Notes under the pieces: model-generated
What the model was told of the DNA's origin: nothing
Database searches by the model: none
What the model saw: only the letters and a program-made list of their open reading frames with translations
Program-made: the position numbers and the translations under genes
Source: Sphingorhabdus sp. Alg231-15
Lineage (GTDB): Bacteria > Pseudomonadota > Alphaproteobacteria > Sphingomonadales > Sphingomonadaceae
DNA: 64,000 bases
NCBI RefSeq assembly: GCF_900149705.1
Contig: NZ_LT703001.1
Coordinates: 2,356,001 to 2,420,000 of the forward strand
Reading direction: 5' to 3'
In this document: piece by piece, positions 7,783 to 29,154 of the stretch
Layout of the letters: every line of letters begins with the position of its first letter
How positions within the stretch are numbered: the stretch's first letter is position 1

Positions 7783-7798
7783 TTAATCGTTCAATTAA
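7783..7798. promoter_or_regulatory. Candidate regulon operator, site 1
   Basis: TTAATCG-TT-CAATTAA, a 16-bp near-perfect palindrome. It lies 45 bases before the molybdopterin oxidoreductase start and 83 bases before the acyl-CoA dehydrogenase start, so it can serve both divergent units. Same pattern as the sites at 16830, 24605 and 29139. Confidence 0.7.
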
Positions 7799-7880
7799 CA
7801 AGGAACGATTCCAAAAATAGGGCATGGCGGTGTGCGCTGCCACTGACCCTATTGATAAGATATCTCAGGAGCAAAGCCCC

Positions 7881-9095
7881 ATGGCCAACAAGCCCGACGC
7901 AGCCGAATTAAAGGATTATAGCCAAGCCGCTGATGCGTGGTTCAAGGAGAATACGGTTCGTGACCCCGGGTTCATGCTGCCGTTGACCTTCATGGAGGTG
8001 TCAACTGATGAGCAGTTTGATTTCCTGCGTGAGTGGCAGCGTAAGGTCTATGAAGCGGGCTATCTGGGCGCGGCATGGCCGAAAGAATATGGCGGGGGCG
8101 GCCTGCACACGGATTTTCAGCGTGCGGCGACCCGGGCGATGAAAAAATATGACGCCCCGATCATGCTCAACGCGATTGGCAATGGCTGGGCTGGGCCGCT
8201 CATCCTTGATCTGGGATCGGAGGAGCAGAAACAGAAATATATTAAGGGCATGCTCAATGCAGAGGATATATGGTGCCAGGGCTTTTCCGAACCGGAACAT
8301 GGCAGTGACCTTGGCAATGCGCAGCTGAAAGCGGTCAAGGACGGCGATGACTATGTTCTCAACGGGTCGAAAATCTGGACCTCGCTGGGCGATCGGGCGA
8401 AATATATGATCCTGCTCGCACGCACCGATTTCGAGGCAGAGAATAAATATAAGGGTCTCAGCTTTTTCCTTAATCCGATGAAGATTGACGGGATCAGCAC
8501 CAGCCGGATCAAGAAGTTGACCGGTGAATATGGTTTTGTGCAGACCTTCTTTACCGACGCACGGATTTCTGCCGACTGCCTGTTTGGCGGGGAAGGCAAT
8601 GGCTGGTCAATGGCGATGAAGACGCTGGAATATGAGCGCGGCGCCAAGGTTAAACCGGTCGGCGGCTATTTCGTCAAGGAACTGGATGTCATGCAGATTG
8701 TCGAGCTGGCAAAAAACTCGACGCGCAATGGCAAGCCCTTGCTCGACGATCCGGTGATGCGCGACAAGATGACGCAATATATGATTGATATCCAGGCGCT
8801 CAATCTCAACAACACCCGCCGCCGGATGCCGCAGCTGATGCAAGACAAGCCAATGGGCCTGCCGCTGATGAACAAGCTGGCGCGGACCGAGTTGATCCGC
8901 GAGCTGACCGAATTTTCGCTCGGCTTTCAGGGGACCAAGGCGGGCTATTATGTCGGCGATGAAAATGCTGTGGATGACGGTTACTGGCACCGCAGCTATC
9001 TCAACAGTTTCTCCGCGACAATTGGCGGCGGGACGTCGGAGATCCAGCGCAATATTGTCGCCGAGCATGCGCTTGGCCTGCCGAAGACGCGCTAA
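7881..9095 (+). CDS. Acyl-CoA dehydrogenase, subunit A of a pair
   Basis: FAD-dependent acyl-CoA dehydrogenase of 404 residues that would introduce the alpha-beta double bond in an acyl-CoA. Visible motifs: WPKEYGGGG (about residues 54-62), WCQGFSEPEHGSDL (FAD and substrate contact), KIWTSLGDRA, and the C-terminal GGGTSEIQRNIVAEHALGLP that binds FAD. The neighbouring gene encodes a second, shorter paralogue that keeps the other FAD motif (QFHGGFGFT), an arrangement known for heterotetrameric FadE/ChsE-type enzymes acting on bulky substrates. The start at 7881 is supported by AGGAG upstream. First gene of a seven-gene run. Confidence 0.93.
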   Translation: MANKPDAAELKDYSQAADAWFKENTVRDPGFMLPLTFMEVSTDEQFDFLREWQRKVYEAGYLGAAWPKEYGGGGLHTDFQRAATRAMKKYDAPIMLNAIGNGWAGPLILDLGSEEQKQKYIKGMLNAEDIWCQGFSEPEHGSDLGNAQLKAVKDGDDYVLNGSKIWTSLGDRAKYMILLARTDFEAENKYKGLSFFLNPMKIDGISTSRIKKLTGEYGFVQTFFTDARISADCLFGGEGNGWSMAMKTLEYERGAKVKPVGGYFVKELDVMQIVELAKNSTRNGKPLLDDPVMRDKMTQYMIDIQALNLNNTRRRMPQLMQDKPMGLPLMNKLARTELIRELTEFSLGFQGTKAGYYVGDENAVDDGYWHRSYLNSFSATIGGGTSEIQRNIVAEHALGLPKTR

Positions 9096-9124
9096 GCCTC
9101 ATCACGAAAAATCAGGACGGAAAA

Positions 9125-10249
9125 ATGGATAATCTGGGCAATATCGGCACGACCGAAGAGCAAATTGAATTGATGGATGTCGCGACCAACTTCTGCCGCG
9201 ACAAGTCGCCTATCGACAAGGTTCGGGCTCTAATGGAGGACGAGTTGGGCTATGATCCGCAGGTTTGGAAAGAGATAGGTGAACTCGGCTGGCTGGCCAT
9301 CGCTATCCCCGAGAAACACGAGGGTGTAGGCTTGTCCATGGCCGAAGTTGTGCCGATTGCCGAGCAAATGGGCCGCAATTTAATGAATACGCCCTTTGCC
9401 AGCACAACAATCGCGGCACAGGCTTTGCTCGCTGGCGGCAGCGAGGCACAGCAGGCCGAGTGGTTGCCGAAAATCGCAGCAGGCAGTGCGGCTACTATGG
9501 CTCTTGCTGAAGAGAGTGGTGATTGGGATCTGAGCAATATCGCCTGTTCGGGTAAGCAAGAGGGTGGCAACCTCGTTCTATCCGGCAAGAAGCAACTGGT
9601 GCGTTGGGCGGATAGTTCAGAACTGACCATCGCTTCCATAAAGGTTGATGGAGATCTTCGCTTTGCATTGATCGAACGGAGTGCCGTGCCCGACGGTGCG
9701 CTGCGGCGGGAGTCGATTATTGATGAAACTGCACGCAGTTATGAGCTGACTCTGGACGGGGTGACGATTGCAGCAGATGCCCTGTTTGATGCCAGCCGGA
9801 TGCGCGAGACCATCGAGAAAGTTGAACTCGCGGCCGGGCTCATTCACGCGGCCGAAATGTGCGGCGGGTCGCAGGCGGTCATCGACTATACGCTGGAATA
9901 TCTGAAAACCCGCAAGCAGTTTGACAAGATTATCGGAAGCTACCAGGCGCTAAAACATCCCACGGTCGATAATTATGTCGAATATGAAAAAGCCCGGACG
10001 CATCTCTATAGCGCGGCGCATAGCTGGGGTGAGCAAGGCCGCGGCGAAGTTGCTGTTCGCATGGCGGCAGCGCAGGCCCATAGCAGCTACAGCCGTGCTG
10101 CGGATCGCTCAATCCAGTTCCATGGCGGCTTTGGCTTCACGCATGATTGCGACGCGCAATTGCACCGCCGCAAAGCTATATTTGACGGCGCGCTCATCGG
10201 CGACGCCGCTTATCAAAGGTCGAAACTGGCCGGCTTGCTATTCGATTAG
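9125..10249 (+). CDS. Acyl-CoA dehydrogenase, subunit B of a pair
   Basis: A 374-residue acyl-CoA dehydrogenase paralogue, 30 bases downstream of the first. N-terminal helical domain (FCRDKSPIDKVRALMEDE), WLAIAIPEKHEGVGLS, a weakened middle domain (MALAEESGDWD), then RKQFDKIIGSYQALKHPTVD and RSIQFHGGFGFTHDCDAQLH. The HGGFGFT motif is present here and absent in the partner, whereas the GGGTSEIQR tail is present in the partner and absent here, which supports a mixed alpha2beta2 enzyme. Middle-domain divergence suggests one subunit is not catalytic on its own; this is inference from family knowledge. Confidence 0.92.
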   Translation: MDNLGNIGTTEEQIELMDVATNFCRDKSPIDKVRALMEDELGYDPQVWKEIGELGWLAIAIPEKHEGVGLSMAEVVPIAEQMGRNLMNTPFASTTIAAQALLAGGSEAQQAEWLPKIAAGSAATMALAEESGDWDLSNIACSGKQEGGNLVLSGKKQLVRWADSSELTIASIKVDGDLRFALIERSAVPDGALRRESIIDETARSYELTLDGVTIAADALFDASRMRETIEKVELAAGLIHAAEMCGGSQAVIDYTLEYLKTRKQFDKIIGSYQALKHPTVDNYVEYEKARTHLYSAAHSWGEQGRGEVAVRMAAAQAHSSYSRAADRSIQFHGGFGFTHDCDAQLHRRKAIFDGALIGDAAYQRSKLAGLLFD

Positions 10250-10269
10250 GATTCAAAGGAGAGATCAAT

Positions 10270-11028
10270 ATGTCAGAAGTACTCACGGATATTCAGGACG
10301 GCTTTATCATCGTCACTATCAACCGGCCGGATGCGAAGAACGCCATGACCAAGGCAGCTGCCGAAGGTATCAGAGCCGCGATGGAGCAGCTCGACAATGA
10401 CAATAGCCTCAATGCTGGTATCATCACTGGCGCCGGCGGAACATTTTGTTCGGGCATGGATCTCAAAGGATTTCTGCGCGGTGAAACGCCATCGGTGAAA
10501 GGCTATGGTTTCGGTGGCATCACCGAAAAGGGCCCGGAAAAACCGATCATCGCAGCTGTCGAAGGCTATGCCCTCGCCGGCGGTCTGGAACTCGCGCTGG
10601 CCTGTGATTTATGCGTCGCCAATGACAAAGCGAAATTCGGTATTCCTGAGGTGAAGCGCTCACTCGTTGCTGCGGCAGGCGGCGTGATCAAGCTCCAGCA
10701 ATTGGTCGGCAAACGCATAGCGATGGAAATGGCTTTGACCGGAGATTTCTTCTCTGCCCAGCGGGCCTATGACGTCGGGTTCGTAAATCGCCTGACCGAT
10801 GGTCCTGCTCTGGATGCAGCGATTGAATTGGCTGCGACCGTTGCTGCCAACGGTCCGCTGGCACTCAAGGCGACCAAGAAAATCATCAACGAAAGCTATG
10901 ATTGGACCAGCGAAGAAGCTTGGAAAAAGCAGGCTGAGATTACCGGCCCTGTATTCACGTCCAAGGACGCACAGGAGGGATCGCTTGCTTTCGCACAGAA
11001 ACGCAAACCCGATTGGAAAGGTGAGTAA
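10270..11028 (+). CDS. Enoyl-CoA hydratase/isomerase family protein
   Basis: Crotonase-fold protein of 252 residues, likely hydrating or isomerising the enoyl-CoA made by the preceding dehydrogenase pair. The oxyanion-hole segments are FCSGMDLKGF (about residues 59-68) and VEGYALAGGLELALACD (about 96-112), the latter carrying Glu in the catalytic loop. The next loop is FGIPEVKRSLVAAAGG, which lacks the second Glu of the mitochondrial hydratase. Ends in KRKPDWKGE, a typical crotonase tail. Starts 21 bases after the dehydrogenase stop, in the same operon. Confidence 0.92.
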   Translation: MSEVLTDIQDGFIIVTINRPDAKNAMTKAAAEGIRAAMEQLDNDNSLNAGIITGAGGTFCSGMDLKGFLRGETPSVKGYGFGGITEKGPEKPIIAAVEGYALAGGLELALACDLCVANDKAKFGIPEVKRSLVAAAGGVIKLQQLVGKRIAMEMALTGDFFSAQRAYDVGFVNRLTDGPALDAAIELAATVAANGPLALKATKKIINESYDWTSEEAWKKQAEITGPVFTSKDAQEGSLAFAQKRKPDWKGE

Positions 11029-11030
11029 TC

Positions 11031-11429
11031 ATGCCTGATATTGAACGGATCAACCCCGATACTTTGCCGGACGCCGCTGCGATGGGCTATTCGCAGGTTA
11101 CGACTTGTACGCCAGGGAAGATGATTTTCATCTCTGGCCAGGTGGCCTGGACCCCGGGCGGCGATCCGGCCCCCGATAATCTGGCCGAACAGGCGAAGAT
11201 GGCGAGTAGCAATCTCGGTAAGGCACTGGCTTCGGCTGGAGCCGGGCCAGAGAATATCGTTTCCGCCCGCGCTTTCATCGTCGACTATACCGAAGAAAAA
11301 GGCGCGGAGGCCTTTCCCGAGATACTCGCCTCTCTTGGCGGGAATCAGGTCGCCTTCACTCTGATCGGCTGTGCAGCATTGGCGTCCCCTGACCTGATGA
11401 TTGAGATAGAGGCGATTGCGGTTGTCTGA
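11031..11429 (+). CDS. RidA family protein (non-canonical)
   Basis: A 132-residue YjgF/YER057c/UK114 protein. Trimeric RidA proteins release ammonia from reactive enamines/imines. Family segments seen here are MIFISGQVAW and VSARAFIVDY, with the closing strand MIEIEAIAVV. The region that normally carries the active-site Arg (RSCVEV in RidA) reads LIGCAALASPD and has no Arg, so this belongs to an Rid subgroup without the usual deaminase chemistry and may bind a different small molecule. It starts two bases after the hydratase stop and is translationally coupled to the hydrolase behind it. Confidence 0.88.
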   Translation: MPDIERINPDTLPDAAAMGYSQVTTCTPGKMIFISGQVAWTPGGDPAPDNLAEQAKMASSNLGKALASAGAGPENIVSARAFIVDYTEEKGAEAFPEILASLGGNQVAFTLIGCAALASPDLMIEIEAIAVV

Positions 11430-12390
11430 ACCTACAGCGACAGGCAGCGGAGATATTGTTGATCTCTGGTCTGCTGATCAAGAATTGCCATCCTGGTTCA
11501 CCGAGGCGCTTGATATGCCGCGTGAGGAAGCCTTTATCGAAGTGGATGGACATAAGGTCCATTATTTCCGCTGGGGCAAGCGCGGTAATCCCCCGCTGCT
11601 GCTGACGCACGGCTTTCTAGCCCATGCTCGGTGTTTTGCGTTTATCGCGCCGTTCCTCGCCGAGGATTATGACATTATCGTCTATGATCTGGCCGGCATG
11701 GGAGAAAGCGAAATTGGAGCAGTGTTTGAAGGGGCACAGCGCGCCGAAGATATGGTCGCTCTCGCCGATGCGCTGGATCTTTTTTCCGGCCCAGTGAAAC
11801 CGAAGATCATCGCTCACAGCTTTGGTTCGGGTGTAGCTCTGACGGCGATGGAATTGGCTGGAGAGCGATTTGGCGGATTGATTATCTGCGACTTGATGAT
11901 CATGCGGCCAAAGAGACTCATGGAGCATTTCAAGGGTGGCGGCGGTCCTCCAGGTTCAGGCAAGTCGGACCGGCCTACCAATGTCTATCCTGACTATGAG
12001 ACGGCGCGCGGACGCTTCGTACTCGCGCCTTTGCAAGATGTGCAGACGCCTTTTTTGTTGGAATATATGGCTTATCACAGCATGCGCCAGGTTGAAGGCG
12101 GTTGGACCTGGAAATTCAACCCCAAGGTTTTTCACCGCAGCGAAAATGATCAGGCCAAATGGATGCAGGCTCCGCAACGGATTGTTGATCTGCCGCACCG
12201 GCTAGCGATTATCTATGGCGAGAATAGCAGATTGTTCGATGATGACAGCGCGGCCTATTTGCGTGAGTTGGGGGGTGCACATATTCCGATGATTGCAGTG
12301 CCCAAGGCGGAACACCATCTTATGCTCGATCAGCCGCTTGCATTTGTGACGTCGCTGCGCTCTGTTCTGGCTTTGTGGGATGTTCCATAA
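11422..12390 (+). CDS. Alpha/beta hydrolase
   Basis: Alpha/beta-hydrolase of 322 residues. Seen: LLLTHGFLAHARCF (oxyanion region), YDLAGMGES, nucleophile elbow AHSFGSG with Ser near residue 133, acidic candidate in YGENSRLFDDDS and the base His in AEHHLML near the C-terminus. It could hydrolyse an ester, lactone, C-C bond or thioester. The start is a TTG overlapping the RidA stop codon; TTG 11422 is preferred over TTG 11416 because GAGGCG then has normal spacing. Part of the acyl-CoA operon. Confidence 0.88.
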   Translation: MSEPTATGSGDIVDLWSADQELPSWFTEALDMPREEAFIEVDGHKVHYFRWGKRGNPPLLLTHGFLAHARCFAFIAPFLAEDYDIIVYDLAGMGESEIGAVFEGAQRAEDMVALADALDLFSGPVKPKIIAHSFGSGVALTAMELAGERFGGLIICDLMIMRPKRLMEHFKGGGGPPGSGKSDRPTNVYPDYETARGRFVLAPLQDVQTPFLLEYMAYHSMRQVEGGWTWKFNPKVFHRSENDQAKWMQAPQRIVDLPHRLAIIYGENSRLFDDDSAAYLRELGGAHIPMIAVPKAEHHLMLDQPLAFVTSLRSVLALWDVP

Positions 12391-12409
12391 GCCAGAAAGA
12401 GGTCTAGTC

Positions 12410-13357
12410 ATGAGCGGCAATTCCAGAGCACGTATCGTTTCGGTGGTTCAAGCCGGATCCGATCCCTTCGATACACCATCGACGCTGAACAAATTTGCAG
12501 ACCTTTTGTCGGAGGCCAAAACTGGAAAGAGTGAACTGGCCGTGTTTCCGGAGGCCTTTGTTGGCGGCTATCCTAAAGGTGTTGATTTTGGAGTTCGCGT
12601 TGGGTCGCGGGATGATGCAGGGCGGGAATTGTTCCGGCTCTACTCTGACAATGCCATTGCACTGGGCTCCGCTGAATTTGAGGCTCTAAGTGAAACAGTT
12701 GCTGCCAATGATCTGGCTGTGGTTGTTGGCGCCATCGAACGCAAAGGCGCGACGCTTTATTGCTCGACTTTCAGCTTTGAAAGGGATGGAAGCCTGCTCG
12801 GTGTGCATCGCAAGCTGGTGCCGACCGCGATGGAGCGACTGATCTGGGGACAAGGTGACGGCAGCGATCTCCCCGTAATGGACAGCAGCGCCGGCCGGTT
12901 GGTCAGCGCTATCTGCTGGGAAAATTACATGCCGCTGCTGCGGAGCTATTATTACGACGCGCAGCCCGATTTCTACTGTGTCTCCACCGTTGATGACCGA
13001 CCGGTATGGGTGCCAACGATGCAAACCATCGCATTGGAAAGCCGCGCCTTTGTCTTGTCAGCCTGCCAGTATCTCGAGCGCGGGATGATCACCTTGGATG
13101 CAGAGCAATTTGACGCGATGCAAGGGAATGATTCTGATAGCCTGTTGATCAATGGTGGCAGCTGCATCATCGCTCCGACCGGAGAGGTAATCGCAGGACC
13201 GGTATTCGGTAAGGAAACAATCCTGACCGCTGAAATTGATCTGAATGACCGGACGAGGGGCAAATTCGATATGGATGTTGCTGGCCACTACGCACGACCA
13301 GATATTTTTGAATTGCAGGCCAATGTGGCACCGCAGAAAAATGTTCGTAAGAACTAA
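12410..13357 (+). CDS. Nitrilase (carbon-nitrogen hydrolase family)
   Basis: A 315-residue nitrilase-superfamily enzyme that converts a nitrile to a carboxylate and ammonia. The Glu-Lys-Cys triad is complete: Glu48 (FPEAFVGGYPKG), Lys135 (GVHRKLVPT) and Cys169 (ICWENYMPL). CWENYMP and RKLVPTAMERLIWGQGDGS are hallmarks of true aliphatic nitrilases rather than amidases or carbamoylases. The ATG at 12410 has GAGG upstream; an in-frame ATG 30 bases earlier overlaps the hydrolase gene. Presence inside a fatty-acyl-type operon is unusual. Confidence 0.92.
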   Translation: MSGNSRARIVSVVQAGSDPFDTPSTLNKFADLLSEAKTGKSELAVFPEAFVGGYPKGVDFGVRVGSRDDAGRELFRLYSDNAIALGSAEFEALSETVAANDLAVVVGAIERKGATLYCSTFSFERDGSLLGVHRKLVPTAMERLIWGQGDGSDLPVMDSSAGRLVSAICWENYMPLLRSYYYDAQPDFYCVSTVDDRPVWVPTMQTIALESRAFVLSACQYLERGMITLDAEQFDAMQGNDSDSLLINGGSCIIAPTGEVIAGPVFGKETILTAEIDLNDRTRGKFDMDVAGHYARPDIFELQANVAPQKNVRKN

Positions 13358-13436
13358 AACAACCCGGGATCGTCTGGGCCATCCATATGTGCTAATATTG
13401 GTTTCTCAAAAATGATAGATTTACTGGGAGGAACTG

Positions 13437-15790: not shown

Positions 15791-16768
15791 TTAGGCTGCC
15801 AAATATCCTTCCAGCCGTCCGCGGATAATCTCATCCGCTTCGCTCATTATGCTGTCGATCAATTCCTTACAGGTTGGAATATCGTTGATCAGGCCGGCAA
15901 CCATACCGCAGCTCCAGGCACCTGCATCCATCGTACCTTCCATCATGATCTGCGGGTAGACCCCTGCAACTTGCTCTATAATGTCGGTAAATTGCAGCTC
16001 GCTGCCTTTTTCCTTTTCAATCTCCAGCAGCTTCTCGACCGCTGTATTGTTCAGTACACGCTCGGTATTGCGCAGCGGGCGCATGACGAGGCGGGTATCG
16101 AGTTCGCTGGCGGCAACAATCGCGTCTTTGACGTTCTGATGCACCGGCGCTTCTTTCGTGGCGATGAAGCGTGTGCCCATGTTCATGCCTTCTGCGCCCA
16201 TGGCGAGTGAGGCAACCAGCGACCGGGCATCGGCCTGTCCGCCTGAGCTGACGAATGGAATATCCAATTCATCCGCCGCGCGCGGGAGCAGGATCATGTT
16301 CGGGATATCATCTTCACCGGGATGGCCGCCGCATTCAAAACCGTCAACCGATACAGCGTCGCAACCAATGCTCTGCGCTTTTAGTGCATGACGCACGGCG
16401 GTGCATTTGTGGATGACTTTGACGCCGGCTTCTTTGAGGGACGGGAGATATTGGGCCGGATTATTGCCAGCGGTTTCGACCGCCTTGATATCATTGTCGA
16501 TAATCGCCTTGATATAACCGGGATAGTCAGGCGTGTTGACGATTGGCAGGAAGGTCAGGTTGACGCCAATCGGCTTGTCGGTCAGCGCCTTGGCTTTCTT
16601 GATTTCCTTGTCGAGATCTTCTGGTGTTTTTTGAGTCAGACCAGTGATGATGCCGAGACCGCCTGCTTCCGAAACCGCGGCCGCCAGTTCGGCAAAACCC
16701 ACATAGTGCATCCCGCCCTGAATGATCGGATGTTCGATGCCAAAAAGCTCTGTGATGCGTGTTTTCAT
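15791..16768 (-). CDS. Nitronate monooxygenase-like FMN protein
   Basis: TIM-barrel flavoprotein of 325 residues in the 2-nitropropane dioxygenase/nitronate monooxygenase family. FMN-binding segments include the N-terminal PIIQGGMHYVG, DAVSVDGFECGGHPGEDD and VSSGGQADARSLVASLAMGAEGMNMGTRF. Many members with this ECGGHPG sequence are NADH:quinone reductases or enoyl/dienoyl-CoA-linked flavoenzymes rather than true nitronate oxidases. The start at 16768 has AGAGGACC upstream. A candidate regulon operator lies about 60 bases upstream of it. Its place in an acyl-CoA dehydrogenase operon suggests a role in acyl-CoA catabolism. Confidence 0.88.
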   Translation of the reverse strand: MKTRITELFGIEHPIIQGGMHYVGFAELAAAVSEAGGLGIITGLTQKTPEDLDKEIKKAKALTDKPIGVNLTFLPIVNTPDYPGYIKAIIDNDIKAVETAGNNPAQYLPSLKEAGVKVIHKCTAVRHALKAQSIGCDAVSVDGFECGGHPGEDDIPNMILLPRAADELDIPFVSSGGQADARSLVASLAMGAEGMNMGTRFIATKEAPVHQNVKDAIVAASELDTRLVMRPLRNTERVLNNTAVEKLLEIEKEKGSELQFTDIIEQVAGVYPQIMMEGTMDAGAWSCGMVAGLINDIPTCKELIDSIMSEADEIIRGRLEGYLAA

Positions 16769-16845: not shown

Positions 16846-17867
16846 CTAGCAATCCAGGCGCCGGTTGTCACGCCTTTCCAGATCTGGTCCGGTGACGTTA
16901 CGGCAAGCTCTGCGCCCAGCAATTTGGACCAGCGATGCTCATTGCCAAGCGTATCGCGCCACGCCCACAGGCGACGCGTATAATGGTGCAGGTCATATTC
17001 TTGAGTATAGCCCATGGCGCCGTGCACCTGATGGAAGGGGACGGTGACGGCTTCGACGCTGTGACCGATCTGGACTTTGGCAATCACTGCTTCATGCCAT
17101 GCTTTTTCCGGGTCATCAGCGTTGCTGGCAAGCGCGCTTGCGGCCTGCGTGGCGGCCATGGTCGCGGCTGCGCTCTCTGACGCGGCGACGGCGAGCTGAT
17201 GCTGGATCGCTTGGAATTTCGACAATGGCCGGCCAAATTGTTCACGGTCGGAGACATAGGCGATGGAAAGGTTGAGCGCGGCCTCGATGGCGGAAGCCAT
17301 CTGCACTGCACGTACCGTCAGGATCAAAGCCTCAACCGCACGCTGGGTTAAGTTGGTCCCAGCGCTCGCAACAGGCGTCGCAATGGAGAAATCCAGGCGC
17401 GTATCGCCATCGGGTGACAATGCGTGCCCTTCAGCTGCCGAGGCGTCGGCGCTTTTGTAAAGAGAAATGGCGCTCTTGTTTGTGTCAAACACCGCCACAT
17501 GATCGGCTGCACCGGCGAAAGGAACGCTGGCTGTTTTGCCTTCCAGGATCGCGAACGTGGAAGCACCATCAGGAATTTCGATACCGGCCCGATCGAGCAA
17601 CCAGTTCCCGATCAAGGTCTCGGCAAAGGGTACTGGTGACGCAGCCTCTGCGGAGACCCAGATGGCTCCGAAGACTTCATCATAGTCGGCACCAAAGCCG
17701 CCATTATCTTCGCTAACCCACGCCAGCGGCAAACCATTTTCGGTCAGCGCATCCCACAAGGCTCGCGGATATTTTCCAGCTTCGGCTTCATGTGGGACAT
17801 CTCGTCCGCACAGATCGGTGTATATTTTTGCAGCCGTTTCAGCGACCATGCCTTCTGTATTGATCAT
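16842..17867 (-). CDS. Acyl-CoA dehydrogenase, short subunit of second pair
   Basis: A 341-residue acyl-CoA dehydrogenase-like protein, shorter than the usual 380 or so. N-terminal helices (LWDALTENGLPLAWVSEDNGGFG) are followed by a reduced middle domain, then REQFGRPLSKFQAIQHQLA and HQVHGAMGYTQEYDLHHYTRR. It keeps the HGAMGYT FAD/substrate motif but lacks the EIQR-type tail, mirroring the pair at 7881/9125. The partner is encoded 12 bases upstream at 17879-19033, so an alpha2beta2 enzyme is likely. The start at 17867 has AAGGG upstream. Confidence 0.92.
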   Translation of the reverse strand: MINTEGMVAETAAKIYTDLCGRDVPHEAEAGKYPRALWDALTENGLPLAWVSEDNGGFGADYDEVFGAIWVSAEAASPVPFAETLIGNWLLDRAGIEIPDGASTFAILEGKTASVPFAGAADHVAVFDTNKSAISLYKSADASAAEGHALSPDGDTRLDFSIATPVASAGTNLTQRAVEALILTVRAVQMASAIEAALNLSIAYVSDREQFGRPLSKFQAIQHQLAVAASESAAATMAATQAASALASNADDPEKAWHEAVIAKVQIGHSVEAVTVPFHQVHGAMGYTQEYDLHHYTRRLWAWRDTLGNEHRWSKLLGAELAVTSPDQIWKGVTTGAWIAS

Positions 17868-19057: not shown

Positions 19058-21016
19058 TCAGGGTGTTACGATGTTGAACTGCGGATCCACCGGATCAAGC
19101 GCTCCAAACATCGCCGCCATCAGTCCGACATTGCCTAGCACCCGCATATTGCCGGATACAATGAGCTCACGTGGTGTGATTTCCCGCATCAGCACCCGGG
19201 TAAAATCGCTCCGGCTGACGGTGATCTGCGCGACCGAACGATCAGTGGTGCCATCGCGTGGGAACATGACGCTTTTGCCGAGATCAACGCTGACTGCTTC
19301 GCCGCGATCCGGGAACGTGAATTGAATGATTCCACCAGCGCCCCTCATCCGTGCCGGATTAAAGCGCGCAGCCAAAGCATCGAACAAATCGACCGCCGGA
19401 ATGCTGTTTAACACCCGCGCATTGGTAGTGGCGACCACTTCACCCCGGTCATTACCCTCACGCAGCTCCTTGGCACCCGACAGATAGATATTGCGCCAGG
19501 TGCCAGCTTCGGCCTGGAAACCAAGCTGTTCATAGGTGGAGGCGAGCCATTTTTTGGCTGCTTCATTGACCGGGTCAGCAAAGACGACATGATTGAAGAC
19601 GGTGGCTGCCCAACGATAATCGCCGGTGGCAAAGGCCTGTTCGCCAACCGATAGCGCTTTGGCGGCACCGCCCATCGCCGCGACATATTTCCGTGATGCT
19701 GCAACCGGCGGTAACTCATGATAATGCGCCGGAACGCCGTCCCACCAACCGAAATAGCGCTGATATACTGCCTTTGAATTGTGATTGAGCGTGCCATAAT
19801 AATCGCGGACGCCAAAATCTGTTGCCGCAAAATCAGGTTCGCCGATATTCTCGGCTATCTCGTGCATCGTGGCACCCTGATTGGCCTGGCGCAATGTCTG
19901 GTCGTGGACATAGCGATATAGACCGCGCTGGTTCTTCAAAGCGGCCTCAACATTCTCGCTGCCCCAGATTGGCCAGTGATGGCTGGCGAGCAGCACGTCA
20001 GACTTTTCGCCATATTTCGCGAGCATGGCATCAATCACCTTGCTCCATTTCAGAGTATCGCGGACCAGAGCGCCGCGGGGTGTCAGCACATTGTGGAAAT
20101 TGCGGGTAGCCACTTCGGCACTATGCAGCGCTTTGAATTCGGGCAGATAAAAGACCAGTTCTGCTGGTGCTTCCGTCTCGCTGGCATCCATAAACTCAAA
20201 AGTGATGCCATCAATGGAGAGGGTCTCGCCATCCTTGCTCACCGTCTTGGTTGGCGGCAGCAGCGACAGGTCGCCTGTTGACAAATATTGCCCCAATCCA
20301 GTCCCAACATGGCCGGTCGGTCCGGCAGGCAGGTTGGTGCCGAACTGAAATTGTACCCGACGATTCATCGTGGTTCCGGCAAGCACATTCTCGCCAATGG
20401 ATTCTCTCAGAAAACCATGTGGAGCAATGATCTGTACCTTGCCATATTGGATTTCCTGCGGTGTAACAACACCGCTTACACCGCCAAAATGATCGCCATG
20501 GCTGTGCGTGAAAATTACCGCCTGCACCGGGCGCTGGCCCAGTGTTTCATTGGCAAGGGCGAGAGCCGCTTTGGCCGGGGCAGGTGTCGTCAGCGGGTCA
20601 ACCACAATCCAGCCGGTTTTGCCAGCAATCAGGGTCATTTGTGCGAGATCATAGCCGCGCAGTTGGTAGATGCCCTGTTGCACCTCGAACAGCCCATGGA
20701 TGCTGTTGAGCTTGCCCTGCCGCCAGAGGGATGGGTTGACGGTATCGGGGGCCGCGTCTTTGACAAAATCAAACTGGCCGACTTCCCATGCAACCGAGCC
20801 ATCTTCGTTCAGGATTTGCGCGTCCTCAATCTTCGCCAGAAAGCCGCGATTGGCATTGTCGAAATCCGTCTGATCAGCAATTGGCAAACGCGCTGCGACT
20901 CCTGCGTTGGCTGCTTTGGTTGACGCCGTAGCGACACCTTCCGGCGGCTCGCCTGCGGCCATGAGCAGCGGCGCTGCCATCAACGAAGCGGCGGTGAGAT
21001 ATCCTGGCGTCTTCAT
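19058..21016 (-). CDS. Alkyl sulfatase-type metallo-beta-lactamase protein, exported
   Basis: A 652-residue relative of SdsA1-type linear primary alkylsulfatases. An N-terminal signal peptide (KTPGYLTAASLMAAPLLMAAG) predicts the periplasm. The zinc motif THSHGDHFGG is near residues 170-179, followed by HSAEVATRNFHN and LLASHHWPIWG. Then come an alpha-helical dimerisation region (AFATGDYRWAATVFNHVVFADP) and an SCP2-like C-terminal domain, in the order known for the family. It would release sulfate from an alkyl ester. ATG 21016 has better ribosome-site spacing than ATG 21022, which overlaps the hydratase stop. Co-transcription with acyl-CoA genes suggests the freed alcohol is then oxidised. 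Confidence 0.9.
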   Translation of the reverse strand: MKTPGYLTAASLMAAPLLMAAGEPPEGVATASTKAANAGVAARLPIADQTDFDNANRGFLAKIEDAQILNEDGSVAWEVGQFDFVKDAAPDTVNPSLWRQGKLNSIHGLFEVQQGIYQLRGYDLAQMTLIAGKTGWIVVDPLTTPAPAKAALALANETLGQRPVQAVIFTHSHGDHFGGVSGVVTPQEIQYGKVQIIAPHGFLRESIGENVLAGTTMNRRVQFQFGTNLPAGPTGHVGTGLGQYLSTGDLSLLPPTKTVSKDGETLSIDGITFEFMDASETEAPAELVFYLPEFKALHSAEVATRNFHNVLTPRGALVRDTLKWSKVIDAMLAKYGEKSDVLLASHHWPIWGSENVEAALKNQRGLYRYVHDQTLRQANQGATMHEIAENIGEPDFAATDFGVRDYYGTLNHNSKAVYQRYFGWWDGVPAHYHELPPVAASRKYVAAMGGAAKALSVGEQAFATGDYRWAATVFNHVVFADPVNEAAKKWLASTYEQLGFQAEAGTWRNIYLSGAKELREGNDRGEVVATTNARVLNSIPAVDLFDALAARFNPARMRGAGGIIQFTFPDRGEAVSVDLGKSVMFPRDGTTDRSVAQITVSRSDFTRVLMREITPRELIVSGNMRVLGNVGLMAAMFGALDPVDPQFNIVTP

Positions 21017-21018
21017 GA

Positions 21019-21816
21019 TCATTCCCCCTTGAACACCGGTTTGCGCTTTTCAAGAATCGCATCGATCGCTTCCCGGTGGTCGTCGAGCTGTTGAAGAACG
21101 CCCTGAAAGAGAGCCGCCTGATCGAGATTTTCTTTCAATGTTACGCTTTGCGCCGTGCGGACCAATTCCTTGGTTTTGCGAATCGCCAGCGGGGGCAGGG
21201 CAACCACTTGCTCGGCCAGTTCATAGGCGCGTTTGAGCAAATCATCATTGGCCACTACCTCTGAGACCAAGCCATAATCGAGCGCCTTGTGGGCATCGAT
21301 AAACTCGCCGGTGAACAGCATCTGGTTGGCGCGCGCCTGACCAATGATGCGGGGCAGCAGCCATGCGCCGCCGTCTCCAGGAATGATGCCGACGCGCAAG
21401 AAGCTTTCGGCAAAAATCGCATCTTCACCGGCAATACGGATATCACACATGGTGGTCAGGTCATTGCCAGCGCCAATCGCGTGGCCATTGACGGCCGCAA
21501 TCACCGGAACCGAAATCCCGGCCATCGCCAACGGGATTTGTTGGATACCGGTTTTGTACCATTCTTCAATCTGCAGCGGTGTCATATTCTGCTCGGCGGT
21601 CATCGCCTTGATTTCATGCAGATTGCCGCCAGAGGAGAAGCTTTTCCCATTGGCTGCGAGCACCACGCAGCTCACACCCTTATCCGCATCGGCTTTTTTC
21701 ATCGCATTGACTAACGATTCGCAAAGATCGGTCGACAACGCATTGCGTGTCTCCGGCTTGTTCAATGTTATCGTGACCACACGGCCTTGTTTGTCATAAA
21801 GAACGACGTCGCTCAT
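21019..21816 (-). CDS. Enoyl-CoA hydratase/isomerase family protein
   Basis: Crotonase-fold protein of 265 residues. Oxyanion-hole segments are FSSGGNLHEIK (about residues 59-69) and VNGHAIGAGNDLTTMCD (about 109-125). The catalytic loop reads FLRVGIIPGDGGAWLLPR, with Asp at the position of the second catalytic Glu, a pattern seen in isomerase or dehalogenase-like members. C-terminus EKRKPVFKGE. It heads the leftward operon that continues with the alkylsulfatase. No copy of the TTAAYYG palindrome was found upstream. Confidence 0.92.
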   Translation of the reverse strand: MSDVVLYDKQGRVVTITLNKPETRNALSTDLCESLVNAMKKADADKGVSCVVLAANGKSFSSGGNLHEIKAMTAEQNMTPLQIEEWYKTGIQQIPLAMAGISVPVIAAVNGHAIGAGNDLTTMCDIRIAGEDAIFAESFLRVGIIPGDGGAWLLPRIIGQARANQMLFTGEFIDAHKALDYGLVSEVVANDDLLKRAYELAEQVVALPPLAIRKTKELVRTAQSVTLKENLDQAALFQGVLQQLDDHREAIDAILEKRKPVFKGE

Positions 21817-22829: not shown

Positions 22830-22831
22830 GC

Positions 22832-23692: not shown

Positions 23693-23818
23693 GAACCTAT
23701 CGCCTTTTCAGCTCCCAATTGACGCAAAGCAGACCATTTGAAAAGCGGGATTTACCCTTGTGCTGATTTCTGCAGCGATTAGAAGCCTCAGCAAGACATC
23801 CGAAGGACAGGACCGAAT

Positions 23819-24556
23819 ATGAGTGAAGATGAATCATGGGATCTCGATGATTTGCCGGAAGGCGAAGATTCTCAACTCGAGTGGTGGGATTTTGATGACC
23901 GGGCTGAAATGATCGAAGCCGTCGTCGGCGATATTGCATTCATCATCGAAAGCGCGCTTGATGCCCGCGGTGAAGCGTTGCTGGCACTGCCGGTGAGCGA
24001 AGACGCCATGCCGGTGCTAGAAGCCTTGGCAGCAAAGCAGATCAAGTGGAAATATGTCACGATCATCCCGACAGATGATTATCTCGTTCCAGTTGATGAT
24101 CCGCGCAGCCATGTCAAAACCCTCGCGCAACTATTTATGACGCGCGGTGCCCGGGTGCTGCCGATTGCGACCGAGAATGATGACTATCATCTCGCGGGCG
24201 GTGCCGCCGATGCGCGGCTTCAGGATACCAAATGGCCACCGGATCTCATCTGGCTCGGCATGGGTGAGGACGGTAGCACCGCTGGTCTGGTAGAAAGTGC
24301 TGATCTGGAAGAAGCGTTGGACGGCCCTAAGGAAAAGCGGGCGGCTGGAATCATGCCGGACAATGGCGACACGCCGCTGGTGACAATTACGAAGGCCGCC
24401 ATTTGCGAAGCGCGGACGGTTCTGGTGCTGCTCAATGGCGCCGGCTCCCAAATGTATCTGGAACAGGCCATAGGCGAAGGTGCGGGCAGCATGGCTTCCA
24501 TCGGCCGCGTCTTTGCTGACCTCACTGTGCCTGTGGATATCTATGTGGAGAATTAG
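23819..24556 (+). CDS. 6-phosphogluconolactonase-like protein with altered motif
   Basis: A 245-residue protein of the glucosamine-6-phosphate isomerase/6-phosphogluconolactonase fold. An acidic N-terminus (SEDESWDLDDLPEGEDSQ) precedes the domain. ALLALPVSEDAMPVLEAL and IIPTDDYLVPVDDPRSH match the sugar-phosphate binding core. The signature loop reads WLGMGEDGSTAGLVES instead of the usual GMGxDGHTASLFP, so the catalytic His is replaced by Ser and the following residues drift. It may be a weak or altered lactonase. No zwf or edd gene is nearby. Confidence 0.75.
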   Translation: MSEDESWDLDDLPEGEDSQLEWWDFDDRAEMIEAVVGDIAFIIESALDARGEALLALPVSEDAMPVLEALAAKQIKWKYVTIIPTDDYLVPVDDPRSHVKTLAQLFMTRGARVLPIATENDDYHLAGGAADARLQDTKWPPDLIWLGMGEDGSTAGLVESADLEEALDGPKEKRAAGIMPDNGDTPLVTITKAAICEARTVLVLLNGAGSQMYLEQAIGEGAGSMASIGRVFADLTVPVDIYVEN

Positions 24557-24604
24557 AGGATTATTCTTTTCCTCTATGGATAGACGGTCAGACAATCCAT
24601 TGAT

Positions 24605-24620
24605 TTAACTGCGCGCTTAA
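24605..24620. promoter_or_regulatory. Candidate regulon operator, site 3
   Basis: TTAACTG-CG-CGCTTAA, a 16-bp palindrome of the form TTAAYYG-NN-CRRTTAA, 78 bases upstream of the acyl-CoA ligase start. Left arm is the exact complement of the right arm of the sites at 16830 and 29139. Confidence 0.6.
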
Positions 24621-24697
24621 ACCATGATGGGAAAAACGCGAATCGCCATGCTCAAACAAGGCATAGGCGGTCGCCCCCAAATGGAGAGACGCAACCG

Positions 24698-26233
24698 ATG
24701 CATCCTTATCTGCATGCTCAGGAAAATCCCGATAAGCCAGCGATCATCATGGCCAGTACTGGCGCCGTTGAAACTTACGGTGAGCTGGACAAAGCGTCCA
24801 ATCGCATGGCGCATCTCTTCCGCAAGGAGGGTTTGCAAATTGGCGACACGGTAGCGGTGTTGCTGGACAACCACCCCAATTTCTTTGACTTTGCTTGGGC
24901 CGCACAGCGCGCGGGCCTTTATTATGTTGCGATCCCAAGTCGTCTGACGGCTGCTGAAGTATCCTATATTTTGGGAGATAGCGGCGCAACGCTACTGATC
25001 AGCTCTGATACAAAACAAGGTGTCGTCGATGAATTGCACAAGCTCAACCCCGATGTGAAACAATTTCTCTATGGTGTGGAAGATAACCGCGCCATCGAGC
25101 AGGCGCTGGCCGAAATGCCGGACGACCCGATTGATGATCAGCGCCATGGTACAGATATGCTTTACAGTTCCGGTACAACGGGCCGGCCCAAGGGCGTGCG
25201 AATTCCGTTCCCCGAGGATGAAAATATTGCTGCGCCCAATGCACTGGTCATGATGGCGCAAGGTGCATTTGGTTTTCAACCAGGCTGTACCTATTTGTCG
25301 CCCGCTCCGCTTTATCATGCGGCCCCGCTGCGCTGGTGCATGACTGTCCACAAGATGGGCGGCACGGTCATCGTAATGGAAAAATTCGATCCGGAGCAGG
25401 CGCTGGCGCTGATTGAAAAATACAAAGTCGATGTCAGCCAATGGGTGCCGACGCATTTCAGTCGGATGCTCAAACTTCCCGAAGAGACGCGGATGAAATA
25501 TGATGTGTCCAGCCTGACTTGTGCGGTTCACGCCGCGGCCCCGTGCCCCGTTCCGGTAAAGGAAAAGATGATCGAATGGTGGGGCCCCATAATCCGCGAA
25601 TATTATGCGGGATCAGAGGGCAATGGCTTTACCTTTATCAACTCGGAAGATTGGCTGGGACATAAAGGCTCAGTCGGCAAGGCTCTTCTAGGCATTGTCC
25701 ATATTTGTGATGAAAATGACGAAGAAGTGCCCGTAGGTGAAGAAGGGCAGATCTATTTCGAAGGCGGTGCGCCAGTAAAATATCATAATGACCCCGAAAA
25801 AACCAAAGCCGCACACAATAAGCATGGCTGGACCTCGCTCGGCGATGTCGGAAAAGTCGACGAGGACGGCTTTCTCTATCTGACCGATCGCAAGAGCTTC
25901 ATGATCATTTCAGGCGGTGTAAATATCTATCCGCAAGAGATTGAAAACCTATTGGTGACGCATCCGAAAGTGGCGGATGCCGCCGTTATCGGCGCACCGG
26001 ACGATGATATGGGAGAAAAGGTCGTCGCGGTGATTCAGCCGATGGATATGGCCGATGCCAATGACGATTTCTCCCAGGAGCTGGAAGCCTATTTGCGCCA
26101 AACTTTGTCGGGCGTGAAGGTCCCCCGGCAGATTGATTTTCGCGACGAATTGCCACGAGTGGCGACTGGTAAACTCTATAAACGCCTGCTCCGCGATGAA
26201 TATTGGGGCAAGTCCGGTAGCCGAATCGTATAA
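24698..26233 (+). CDS. AMP-dependent acyl-CoA synthetase/ligase
   Basis: A 511-residue ANL-superfamily ligase that activates a carboxylic acid to its CoA thioester via an acyl-adenylate. Core motif A3 YSSGTTGRPKG (about residues 156-166), then REYYAGSEGNGFTFI (A5 region), LGDVGKVDEDGFLYLTDRKSFMIISGG (A7-A8; residues about 389-415) and the catalytic Lys in PRVATGKLYKR. Length and sequence fit the medium/long-chain or cyclic-acid FadD-like group. It is the first gene of a unit with P450 and aldehyde dehydrogenase. GGAGAG precedes the ATG. Confidence 0.93.
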   Translation: MHPYLHAQENPDKPAIIMASTGAVETYGELDKASNRMAHLFRKEGLQIGDTVAVLLDNHPNFFDFAWAAQRAGLYYVAIPSRLTAAEVSYILGDSGATLLISSDTKQGVVDELHKLNPDVKQFLYGVEDNRAIEQALAEMPDDPIDDQRHGTDMLYSSGTTGRPKGVRIPFPEDENIAAPNALVMMAQGAFGFQPGCTYLSPAPLYHAAPLRWCMTVHKMGGTVIVMEKFDPEQALALIEKYKVDVSQWVPTHFSRMLKLPEETRMKYDVSSLTCAVHAAAPCPVPVKEKMIEWWGPIIREYYAGSEGNGFTFINSEDWLGHKGSVGKALLGIVHICDENDEEVPVGEEGQIYFEGGAPVKYHNDPEKTKAAHNKHGWTSLGDVGKVDEDGFLYLTDRKSFMIISGGVNIYPQEIENLLVTHPKVADAAVIGAPDDDMGEKVVAVIQPMDMADANDDFSQELEAYLRQTLSGVKVPRQIDFRDELPRVATGKLYKRLLRDEYWGKSGSRIV

Positions 26234-26245
26234 GCGGAGGATGAT

Positions 26246-27538
26246 ATGAGCGCAGCACCACAAGCACCGGCATCGGTAGCATCAACAGTTATTGATCCTG
26301 TTGCCTATGCGGAATGGGACGGTCTGCTCGACACCTTTGATTGGTTGCGCGAAAACATGCCCGTCGCGCGCGTGGAAAATGGTGATCTGCACGATCCGTT
26401 CTGGCTGGTCACGGGCTATGATGATGTGATGCGGATCAGCAAGGACAACAAGACGTTTCTCAATAGTCCGCGCGGCGTGGTGTTTGGATTTCGCGAAGGC
26501 GAAGAGATTGTGAAAGCGGTGACGGGTGGCAGCCCGCATCTGGTCAATTCACTGGTTGCTTTGGATGCACCAATTCATCCGAAATATCGCCGACTGACCC
26601 AGGAATGGTTCATGCCAAAAAACCTGAAGCAGCTGGAAGCGGAAATTGGTGCACTCGCTAAAACAACGGTGGATCGACTGGTGGAGGCCGGAACCGAAGC
26701 GGACTTTGTTCCGCTGGTGTCCTCGCCCTATCCCCTGCATGTGATCATGCAAATATTGGGCGTGCCCGAGGAAGACGAGCAGCGTATGCTGTTCCTGACC
26801 CAGCAAATGTTTGGCGGGCAGGATGAGGATCTTAACAAGACCGGCATGGCAAATATGACGGCGGAACAGATCACCCAATTGGTCATCGGAGCGGTCGCCG
26901 ATTTCGAAACCTATTTCACCAAAATCACCGAAGAAAAGCGTGCCAATCCGACCGAGGACGTCGCCAGCGTGATTGCCAATGCCAAGGTTGATGGCGAATA
27001 TCTTAGCGACCGCGATATGGCGGGCTATTATATCATCGTGGCATCGGCCGGACATGATACGACATCGGCTTCGACAGCCGGCGCGATGATGGCACTGGCC
27101 CAGGACCCGGAACAGTTTCAGCGGCTCAAAGCCGATCGTGATCTCCTGCCCGGCATTGTTGAGGAAGCAATCCGCTGGACCTCGCCAGTACAGCATTTCA
27201 TGCGCACCGCTGCTGAAGATGTTGACGTTGGCGGGGTGCCAGTTGAAAAGGGTGATTGGCTGATGATCAACTATGTCGCGGCTAATCATGATAATCGGAT
27301 TTTTGACAATCCGCGCAAATTTGACGCGGCCCGTTCGCCTAATCGCCATCTGGCATTCGGTGCCGGGGCACATCAATGTCTTGGATTGCACATGGCGCGG
27401 ATGGAGATGAAAATATTATTCAATGAACTACTCGACCGGATCGAAACGGTGGAGCTGGCGGGAGAACCCAGGCGGGCAAAATCCAGTTTTGTTGGTGGCC
27501 TCAAAACGCTACCACTTAGATATACTCTATCAAAATGA
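26246..27538 (+). CDS. Cytochrome P450
   Basis: Soluble bacterial P450 of 430 residues. I-helix oxygen-activation motif AGHDTTS at about residues 268-274, ExxR in EEAIRW, and the heme-ligand loop FGAGAHQCLG with Cys378. No membrane anchor, as expected for class I bacterial P450s, which need a ferredoxin and reductase; none is encoded in the window. Sequence style resembles terpenoid- or steroid-hydroxylating P450s of sphingomonads, but the substrate cannot be assigned. It starts 12 bases after the ligase stop, in the same operon. Confidence 0.95.
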   Translation: MSAAPQAPASVASTVIDPVAYAEWDGLLDTFDWLRENMPVARVENGDLHDPFWLVTGYDDVMRISKDNKTFLNSPRGVVFGFREGEEIVKAVTGGSPHLVNSLVALDAPIHPKYRRLTQEWFMPKNLKQLEAEIGALAKTTVDRLVEAGTEADFVPLVSSPYPLHVIMQILGVPEEDEQRMLFLTQQMFGGQDEDLNKTGMANMTAEQITQLVIGAVADFETYFTKITEEKRANPTEDVASVIANAKVDGEYLSDRDMAGYYIIVASAGHDTTSASTAGAMMALAQDPEQFQRLKADRDLLPGIVEEAIRWTSPVQHFMRTAAEDVDVGGVPVEKGDWLMINYVAANHDNRIFDNPRKFDAARSPNRHLAFGAGAHQCLGLHMARMEMKILFNELLDRIETVELAGEPRRAKSSFVGGLKTLPLRYTLSK

Positions 27539-27616
27539 CAGGCGGCGATAGTCTTGTAATAGTTTATAAGAAACCAAAATAGAAACGATACGGCAGAAAT
27601 TCCAAAGGAGAGCGAC

Positions 27617-29044
27617 ATGATTACCCAATATAAGAATCTCATCAATGGCCAGATGATCGGCACGGACGATATGCTGGACGTGGTCAATCCCGCCAACGAA
27701 GAGGTAATCGGACAGGTGCCGTCCTGCGGCGAAGCTGAGTTGAACGAAGCGGTCGCCGCTGCGCGCGCGGCTTTCCCGGCCTGGAGCAAGAAATCAATCG
27801 ACGACCGCCGTGCGGTGGTGCAGGCGATTTCCGCAACGATTAAAGAGAATAGCGACGAGCTTTTCCGCCTGCTGACCGCAGAGCAGGGCAAGCCGCATGC
27901 ACAGGCACAAGGCGAAATTATCGGTGCGTCGATGATGGCTGGCGCGCAATCGACGCTCGACCTCGATGACGAGATTAACGAAGATACAGACGAACGCCTA
28001 AGCCGTACCCGCCGGGTTCCGGTTGGTGTGGTTGGCGGCATCGTGCCGTGGAACTTCCCGGTCATGATGGCGGTGCAGAAAATCGCGCCAGCGCTCTTGT
28101 CCGGTTGCACCATCGTCCTGAAGCCATCACCGTTCACGCCGCTGACAACATTGCGGCTGGCGGAGCTGATTAAAGATGTCGCCCCTGCTGGTGTGGTGAA
28201 CATTCTTACCGGCGAAGATAGCCTCGGCCCGTTGATTACTGGCCATCCCGATATCGACAAGATTACCTTCACCGGCTCTACTGCGACTGGCAAGAAGATC
28301 ATGGAAGGCGCTTCCAAGGATCTCAAACGGATCACCTTGGAACTGGGCGGAAATGACGCGTCCATCGTTCTGCCAGACGCCAATGTTGAAAAAGTGGCCG
28401 AGCAGCTATTCTGGTCCAGCTTCACCAATGCGGGCCAGATCTGCGTTGCAGCGAAACGCATCTATATCCACGAAGATATTTATGACGAATTGAGCGCTGC
28501 CATTGCCGAATATGCCAAGCATGTGAAGGTTGGAGACGGCGCGCAGCAAGGCACAGCGGTTGGTCCGATCCAGAACAAGAAGCAATATGACCGTGTGCTG
28601 GAGCTGGTTCAGGATGCCAAGGATAATGGCTATAAGTTCCTCGTCGGCGGCGACCATGATCCCGATGTGCCTGGCTATTATATGCCAATCACTATCCTCG
28701 ACAATCCGCCGGAAGATGCACGAATTGTGGCTGAGGAACAATTTGGTCCGGTCATGCCGCTGATGAAATTCAGCACAGAAGACGAAGTGATCCAGCGTGC
28801 CAATGACAGCGAATATGGTCTGGCTGGCGCAGTCTGGACCGCCAATCCCGACAAGGGCGTTGAGATTGCAGAGAAGCTCGAAACCGGGACCGTGTGGGTA
28901 AACGAATTCCTGCACCTGTCACCATTCGCCCCGTTCGGTGGCCACAAACAATCCGGCTTTGGCGCGGAATATGGCAAGGAAGGCCTTCTCGAATTCACCT
29001 ATCCGCAGGTGATCACAGTTAAGAAGAATAATGTGCCCGCTTAA
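27617..29044 (+). CDS. Aldehyde dehydrogenase family protein
   Basis: A 475-residue NAD(P)-dependent aldehyde dehydrogenase. VPWNFPVMMAVQKIAPALLSG and KPSPFTPL bind the cofactor; FTGSTATGKK; Glu242 in LELGGNDASIV is the general base and Cys276 in NAGQICVAAKRIY the nucleophile. The C-terminus PFGGHKQSGFGAEYGKEGL is typical. It would oxidise an aldehyde made after P450 hydroxylation to the acid used by the upstream ligase. GGAGAG precedes the ATG. A strong terminator follows. Confidence 0.94.
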   Translation: MITQYKNLINGQMIGTDDMLDVVNPANEEVIGQVPSCGEAELNEAVAAARAAFPAWSKKSIDDRRAVVQAISATIKENSDELFRLLTAEQGKPHAQAQGEIIGASMMAGAQSTLDLDDEINEDTDERLSRTRRVPVGVVGGIVPWNFPVMMAVQKIAPALLSGCTIVLKPSPFTPLTTLRLAELIKDVAPAGVVNILTGEDSLGPLITGHPDIDKITFTGSTATGKKIMEGASKDLKRITLELGGNDASIVLPDANVEKVAEQLFWSSFTNAGQICVAAKRIYIHEDIYDELSAAIAEYAKHVKVGDGAQQGTAVGPIQNKKQYDRVLELVQDAKDNGYKFLVGGDHDPDVPGYYMPITILDNPPEDARIVAEEQFGPVMPLMKFSTEDEVIQRANDSEYGLAGAVWTANPDKGVEIAEKLETGTVWVNEFLHLSPFAPFGGHKQSGFGAEYGKEGLLEFTYPQVITVKKNNVPA

Positions 29045-29077
29045 GGCACTTGCCTAAAATGTGGGTTATGTTGGAAC

Positions 29078-29113
29078 AAAGCCGGTTATCACTATTGTGA
29101 TGATCGGCTTTTT
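29078..29113 (+). terminator. Rho-independent terminator after aldehyde dehydrogenase
   Basis: A 15-bp stem (left arm 29078-29092 beginning AAAGCCGG, right arm 29097-29111 ending CGGCTTT, with G:U pairs), loop TATT, then T-rich bases. It closes the ligase-P450-aldehyde dehydrogenase unit and separates it from the thiolase promoter. Confidence 0.88.
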
Positions 29114-29138
29114 CATTTGACGCTAGGGCAGCGCAGGT

Positions 29139-29154
29139 TTAATCGTTCAGTTAA
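29139..29154. promoter_or_regulatory. Candidate regulon operator, site 4
   Basis: TTAATCG-TT-CAGTTAA, 37 bases before the thiolase start and 25 bases after the terminator of the preceding unit. It is thus in a true promoter region. It differs from site 1 by one base. Confidence 0.7.

Follow-up and report, generated by a model that had tools for sequence, protein, structure and literature searches.

A conserved palindrome as the probable operator of a TetR-family regulator of acyl-CoA catabolism in Sphingorhabdus and related sphingomonads

Our analysis of a 64,000-nucleotide stretch of the Sphingorhabdus sp. Alg231-15 genome (hereafter the window) concerns a 16-bp palindrome, TTAAYYG-NN-CRRTTAA, and a TetR-family gene that lies in the same stretch. 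The palindrome is very probably the operator of this TetR protein (the 32150 protein, after its start position; gene at 32150–32788), which we read as a putative autoregulated repressor of acyl-CoA catabolism that would act in the manner of FadR or PsrA and whose ligand is most likely an acyl-CoA. The palindrome is enriched in the genome, is placed before gene starts, is conserved upstream of orthologues, shares its distribution with the TetR protein, is linked to the tetR gene within one operon, and overlaps the promoter of that operon.

Enrichment and conservation of the palindrome

An earlier note, made from the window alone, had proposed that four copies of the palindrome join scattered catabolic units into one regulon. 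All four sequences were recovered at the positions it named (Table 1). Three of them (7783, 16830, and 29139) match the pattern exactly, as had been claimed for all four, while the copy at 24605 departs from it by one mismatch. Distances to the gene starts also agree with the earlier values: 37 bases for the thiolase, 61 for the nitronate monooxygenase (NMO)-family enzyme, and 77 for the acyl-CoA ligase (FadD). The 7783 site lies about 82 bases from the acyl-CoA dehydrogenase (ACAD) and about 44 from the molybdopterin (Mo-) oxidoreductase when ortholog-supported starts are used, the first possible start codons being nearer (25 and 2 bases), and the 16830 site overlaps the end of the upstream ACAD gene.

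A search of the home genome (3.62 Mb, two contigs) revealed 13 exact sites versus 0 matches to the reversed pattern, with base composition predicting 0.135. Allowing one mismatch gave 23 places versus 6 for the reversed control, several of them falling inside open reading frames (ORFs). These numbers indicate that almost every exact site is genuine and that the ten one-mismatch places are a mixture. All further counts used exact sites only, the one-mismatch control being high and the two-mismatch window count not exceeding that of shuffled sequence.

Each of the 32 genomes searched within the genus holds 7–15 exact sites, 365 in total versus 4 for the controls. Across a sample of 298 genomes of the family, the distribution is bimodal: 34 genomes, belonging to 9 of 96 genera, carry 3–21 sites, 5 carry one, and 259 carry none, and the reversed-pattern control never exceeds 2 in any genome. 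The highest counts in this sample, 20 and 21, were observed in G246 and G282 of the genus labelled g96, a possible expansion of the regulon.

These counts bear on the explanation that the palindrome is a chance AT-rich run or a plain promoter element rather than a regulator site. TTTAAT resembles a −10 box, and with up to two mismatches the window holds 4 matches, a count that 16 of 100 shuffles (mean 1.79) also reach; taken by itself, this degenerate form would lack significance. The exact pattern, in contrast, occurs 3 times in the window versus 0 times in 100 dinucleotide shuffles, exact counts exceed the controls about ninety-fold in the 32 genomes, 259 of the 298 family genomes lack any site, and in the aligned thiolase promoters described below the two arms are equally strict. 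The genome, genus, and family counts refute this explanation, and we regard its probability as negligible.

Conservation was examined by tblastn at 80 foreign exact sites from nine genomes, comprising all 40 sites of the genus members G003, G004, and G006, all sites of G162 (9), G161 (8), G198 (7), and G057 (7), 7 of the 11 in G118, and 2 of the 5 in G138. A gene matching a home target or its paralogue follows within 350 bases at 63 of the 80 sites, and at 39 the identity of this match is at least 60%, these comprising 30 of the 40 sites within the genus and 9 of the 40 from outside it. The palindrome is thus conserved upstream of orthologues, including those of other genera, and, with the motif also above chance frequency, the proposed regulon withstood both computational attempts at refutation.

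Individual window sites follow the same pattern. In G004 (L194) and G006 (L207) the 7783-type site is likewise flanked by the Mo-oxidoreductase and ACAD genes, and sites precede NMO homologues (48–68% identity) in G003, G004, and G006. The position before FadD that is orthologous to 24605 is an exact match in G006 (L205) and at loci L162 and L165, which lends the mismatched window copy independent support. Site-to-start distances are often kept, for example 14 bases before an L019-type dehydrogenase in G003, G004, and the home genome. Among orthologous sites the Y/R letters vary and the motif frame remains constant, and a preferred outer flanking T (62% across 93 sites) extends the palindrome to an 18-bp form, tTTAAYYG-NN-CRRTTAAa.

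Co-distribution with the TetR protein

The 32150 protein contains both a TetR_N helix-turn-helix and a TetR-type C-terminal domain. With orthologues defined by at least 53% identity and an E value below 1e-67, it is represented in 39 of the 298 family genomes: in all 34 that carry three or more sites, and in 5 of the 264 others, all from a single sampled genus (g70). The Fisher p for this co-occurrence is 9e-40, a statistic that ignores kinship. Nine further family genomes hold only weaker TetR homologues (25–38% identity) and no exact site, and a sample of 296 genomes of the order yielded no match of at least 53% identity outside the family.

Kinship was controlled with an rpoB tree of 60 genera. 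The tree revealed 7 TetR changes and 6 motif changes, and among independent contrasts 5–6 of 6 ran in the same direction with 0 opposite (p 0.03–0.06). The 32150 protein, which the earlier note had singled out as the best local candidate, is therefore supported in that role by a near-perfect phyletic match, by the trend on the rpoB tree, and by an operon that the motif heads.

Genus g70 (loci L151–L155) presents an altered state. Its genomes retain the orthologue with at most one exact site each, and their TetR operon carries TTAGCCG/TTAAGCG-type arms. A g70-type pattern, TTARSCGNNCGSYTAA, scanned in 15 genomes, was located at the TetR operon in 4 of 5 g70 genomes and otherwise at 0–2 places per genome, like its control; the TetR operon of G297 carries a 2-mismatch form of the main pattern instead. 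The helix-turn-helix of the g70 proteins reads AQLS[RK] where motif-bearing genera have SELS[LV] (4 g70 rows of 28). Together with the lack of any further regulon member at the 12 g70 places considered below, the altered site and helix residues would fit a contracted regulon.

Several observations weigh against the assignment of the palindrome to this protein. The rpoB tree test, at p 0.03–0.06, stands at the edge of significance. At two mismatches the five g70 genomes have fewer matches (13–26) than their controls (18–46), which marks the genome-wide g70 matches as background, apart from the TetR-operon site; no home target lies beside the g70 near-motif places outside the TetR operon (12 places, about 2 kb). 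The g70 regulon could be gone, shrunk to the TetR operon, or using an unrecognised form of the motif. By tblastn, no home-target match lies close to 17 of the 80 foreign sites, and the 63 matches include weak ones (24–40% identity). The combination of TTGAC and operator seen at the thiolase operon is not a general layout: it is present in 7 of the 141 oriented flanks, each belonging to the promoter of a thiolase operon. The predicted fold of the protein singles out no ligand.

An alternative is a true operator that is bound by another regulator, with the 32150 TetR gene merely a linked target. In its favor, the home genome encodes 23 TetR-domain genes, the survey covered the TetR family, and one further TetR gene, at L071, is preceded at about 42 bases by a 2-mismatch site. 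Against it, the 32150 orthologue follows the motif through several independent changes on the rpoB tree, and where the motif is altered the helix residues of the protein are altered too. Of the arguments against this alternative, all but the covariation of helix residues and motif could be mimicked by a conserved TetR gene under the control of some other factor. We consider this alternative unlikely. The L071 protein itself was rejected as the binder, a high-identity match being present in 2 of the 298 family genomes versus the 34 with three or more sites.

Promoter overlap, target genes, and proposed mechanism

The TetR operon begins in the window with a terminator-like stem, followed by TTGACG (29117), the palindrome (29139), and the genes for thiolase, short-chain dehydrogenase (SDR), hydratase, and TetR. 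We aligned 29 distinct thiolase promoters, namely that of the window and 28 from the 34 loci L116–L149. The alignment shows no variation in TTGAC, in the two outer arms (TTTAA and TTAAA), in one further column of the palindrome, or in the ATG; the motif is exact in 24 promoters and carries one mismatch in 5. The left arm of the palindrome occupies the position expected for the −10 box, which suggests exclusion of RNA polymerase.

The motif also accompanies the TetR gene outside the genus. At 20 of 20 TetR loci from nine other genera, five of these loci belonging to g70, it was present upstream of TetR with at most two mismatches (10 exact, 7 with one, 3 with two), and all three two-mismatch cases are from g70. 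At L151, L167, L168, and other loci the ORF caller picked antisense frames, and operon genes there were assigned from spacing. Genus g88 carries an extra one-mismatch copy directly before tetR in 3 of 3 genomes.

Promoter architecture also bears on whether the 32150 protein might be mainly an activator, or both activator and repressor. Variable site-to-start distances and a second motif with a −35-like core adjoining several sites speak for activation, which is rare among TetR regulators; in the best-resolved promoter, however, the left arm sits where the −10 box must be, an arrangement that fits occlusion. A mainly or partly activating role is accordingly quite unlikely in our estimation, and repression remains the favored reading.

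The second motif, TGACGYTACGGCA, is part of a longer inverted repeat that includes the −35-like core. The home genome contains 4 exact copies, and a palindrome lies no more than 50 bases from 3 of these. One-mismatch totals (8 and 9) are no higher than those of the reversed control (7 and 8), but 5 of the 17 places have a palindrome within 100 bases. Of 10 matches with at most one mismatch at the 80 foreign loci, 9 fall within 150 bases of the palindrome, versus 0 of 5 for the reversed pattern. TGACGYTACGGCA may belong to a co-regulator, perhaps of the MerR type, and looks similar to the sites of activators such as LiuR.

Target families were assigned with Pfam and NCBIfam profiles. The 13 exact home sites lie 6–87 bases before the nearest likely start codon (7783 by ortholog-supported starts). 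Within the window they precede the Mo-oxidoreductase/ACAD pair, the NMO-family enzyme, and the thiolase operon. Exact-site targets across the home genome include a PccB/MmdA-like carboxyltransferase, two enoyl-CoA hydratase (ECH)-family proteins, a thiolase, an ACAD divergent from an SDR, an ACAD-thiolase-FadB row divergent from an FMN reductase (L022), another ACAD, a metallo-beta-lactamase-fold protein, and a flavin monooxygenase. One-mismatch places, which are less certain, include a Mo-oxidoreductase, a TonB receptor, a CoA-transferase, and an ACAD. A second Mo-oxidoreductase gene (L014/L026, C1:695166), whose start lies about 13 bases beyond a one-mismatch site, parallels the window pair at 7783.

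Exact sites precede the L022 row as well as additional ACAD, thiolase, and ECH genes, so that the regulon contains the core beta-oxidation set. The target list, made up mostly of acyl-CoA enzymes, thus points to general acyl-CoA catabolism, beyond the local cluster. The catabolic character proposed in the earlier note holds, and the reach proves larger than could be seen from the window, extending to core beta-oxidation genes elsewhere in the genome.

The exact site at L017 lies between FabD (3945–4880; 120 bases) and a divergent 472-aa APH/DUF6285 phosphotransferase (5026–6444; 9 bases). In G004 and G006 a site likewise stands between these two genes, with the divergent ORF 3 and 10 bases away. 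Since the phosphotransferase starts far closer to the site, FabD is doubtful as a target and the phosphotransferase is the likelier one.

Collectively, we infer a mechanism in which the 32150 protein would bind the palindrome as a dimer and, positioned at or close to the promoters of operons for acyl-CoA catabolism, would keep these operons off by repression rather than activation. A ligand, for which the target functions suggest an acyl-CoA made from the incoming substrate as the most likely candidate, would release the protein. Because tetR is the last gene of the operator-bearing thiolase–SDR–hydratase operon, we propose that the protein also represses itself.

Table 1. Candidate operators, second-motif copies, promoter elements, and associated genes
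Feature	Coordinates	Strand	Remarks
Molybdopterin oxidoreductase, probable target	5522–7738	−	Site conserved
Candidate operator, exact, TTAATCGTTCAATTAA	7783–7798	.	Between divergent Mo-oxidoreductase and acyl-CoA dehydrogenase genes
Acyl-CoA dehydrogenase, probable target	7881–9095	+	First in same-strand gene row to about 13357; site conserved
NMO-family FMN enzyme, probable target	15791–16768	−	
Candidate operator, exact, TTAATCGAGCAGTTAA	16830–16845	.	61 bases before NMO-family FMN enzyme
Second motif, TGACGTTACGGCA	16893–16905	+	Beside 16830 operator
Candidate operator, one mismatch, TTAACTGCGCGCTTAA (TTAACTG-CG-CGCTTAA)	24605–24620	.	77 bases before acyl-CoA ligase
Acyl-CoA ligase, probable target	24698–26233	+	Followed by P450 gene, 26246–27538
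Terminator-like 15-pair stem and T run	29078–29111	+	Abuts −35 box; recognisable in many of 29 aligned promoters
Likely −35 box, TTGACG	29117–29122	+	TTGAC invariant in 29 promoters
Second motif, one mismatch, TGACGCTAGGGCA	29118–29130	+	Overlaps −35 box
Candidate operator, exact, TTAATCGTTCAGTTAA	29139–29154	.	Over likely −10 region of thiolase-SDR-ECH-TetR operon
Thiolase (acetyl-CoA C-acyltransferase)	29192–30364	+	First operon gene; NF005077, 680.9 bits vs cut-off 590
Short-chain dehydrogenase	30387–31172	+	Second operon gene; adh_short, 152.4 bits
Enoyl-CoA hydratase family	31206–32096	+	Third operon gene; ECH_1, 190.1 bits
TetR-family regulator, best candidate binder	32150–32788	+	Last gene of operon; TetR_C_9, 169.2 bits
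Second motif, further loci			L016, L020, L021, L171, L178, L179, L188, L191, L193, L197, L206, L209

Two neighboring window genes deserve mention in their own right. A metallo-beta-lactamase gene at 19058–21022, alkyl-sulfatase-like and with an SCP2-like sterol-carrier match, lies inside the acyl-CoA dehydrogenase cluster. A second TetR gene beside the cluster (3664–4326) is weakly KstR-like (28.9 bits versus a cut-off of 280), with no motif of up to two mismatches nearby.

Comparison with known systems

PsrA, FadR (GntR type), and FadP are likewise dedicated regulators of scattered beta-oxidation operons, and two of them, PsrA and FadP, belong to the TetR family, with about 11 and about 18 genes per genome, respectively, according to the accessible parts of one study (PMC5343134). 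In those parts, FadP and LiuQ are unique to betaproteobacteria, and Sphingomonadales are named once, for another regulator (PMC5343134). EdcR of Caenibius tardaugens is likewise described as a sphingomonad TetR repressor of a catabolic cluster, but its proposed operator, TnnCnnTACnAnTnGTAnnGnnA, is unrelated to the palindrome (PMC8700777). We found no paper describing the palindrome operator or its regulator in the open PMC literature, as far as its text is accessible.

Profile comparisons place the 32150 TetR far below the thresholds of named regulators: 22.8 bits against the NCBIfam PsrA model (Vibrio type; cut-off 300), 23.1 bits against Bacillus FadR (TetR type; cut-off 200; 18% identity), and 36.6 bits against BetI (cut-off 201.3). 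Identity to KstR, KstR2, and AibR is 16–17%, and the KstR model gave no match for the 32117 protein at E 0.001.

The closest solved relative of the 32150 protein is Saro_1072 of Novosphingobium aromaticivorans (PDB 2qtq/2rha), and both entries stand out in comparisons with the predicted fold (pLDDT 88.6). Saro_1072 was deposited as a predicted regulator without function, and in open PMC papers 2QTQ/Saro_1072 was found only in one structural-methods list that names the entry. The next neighbors of the predicted fold are acyl-CoA regulators (the putative fatty-acid regulator 6azh, KstR2, AibR with isovaleryl-CoA, and FadR), tied with QacR, DarR, and others; QacR chains score within 1 of KstR, KstR2, and AibR, so that the fold by itself carries little information.

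Hydrocarbons, steroids, and other pollutants are among the compounds that sphingomonads are known to degrade. Our results offer, for several sphingomonad genera, one common switch for acyl-CoA catabolism, with an exact DNA site and a likely protein. A TetR subfamily for which a structure has been solved thereby gains a probable function and a probable operator, and the repeated co-loss, together with the altered site in one genus, provides a usable case of regulator–operator coevolution.

More tentatively, this subfamily, Saro_1072 included, might be the sphingomonad counterpart of FadR. It would then act as master repressor of acyl-CoA breakdown, covering the ACAD-thiolase-FadB set and branched or ring acyl-CoA units, with a second regulator reading the TGACGYTACGGCA-type site at some promoters; related genera would have lost the system on several occasions, and a single genus would have kept it only at the regulator's own operon, with changed operator and helix residues.

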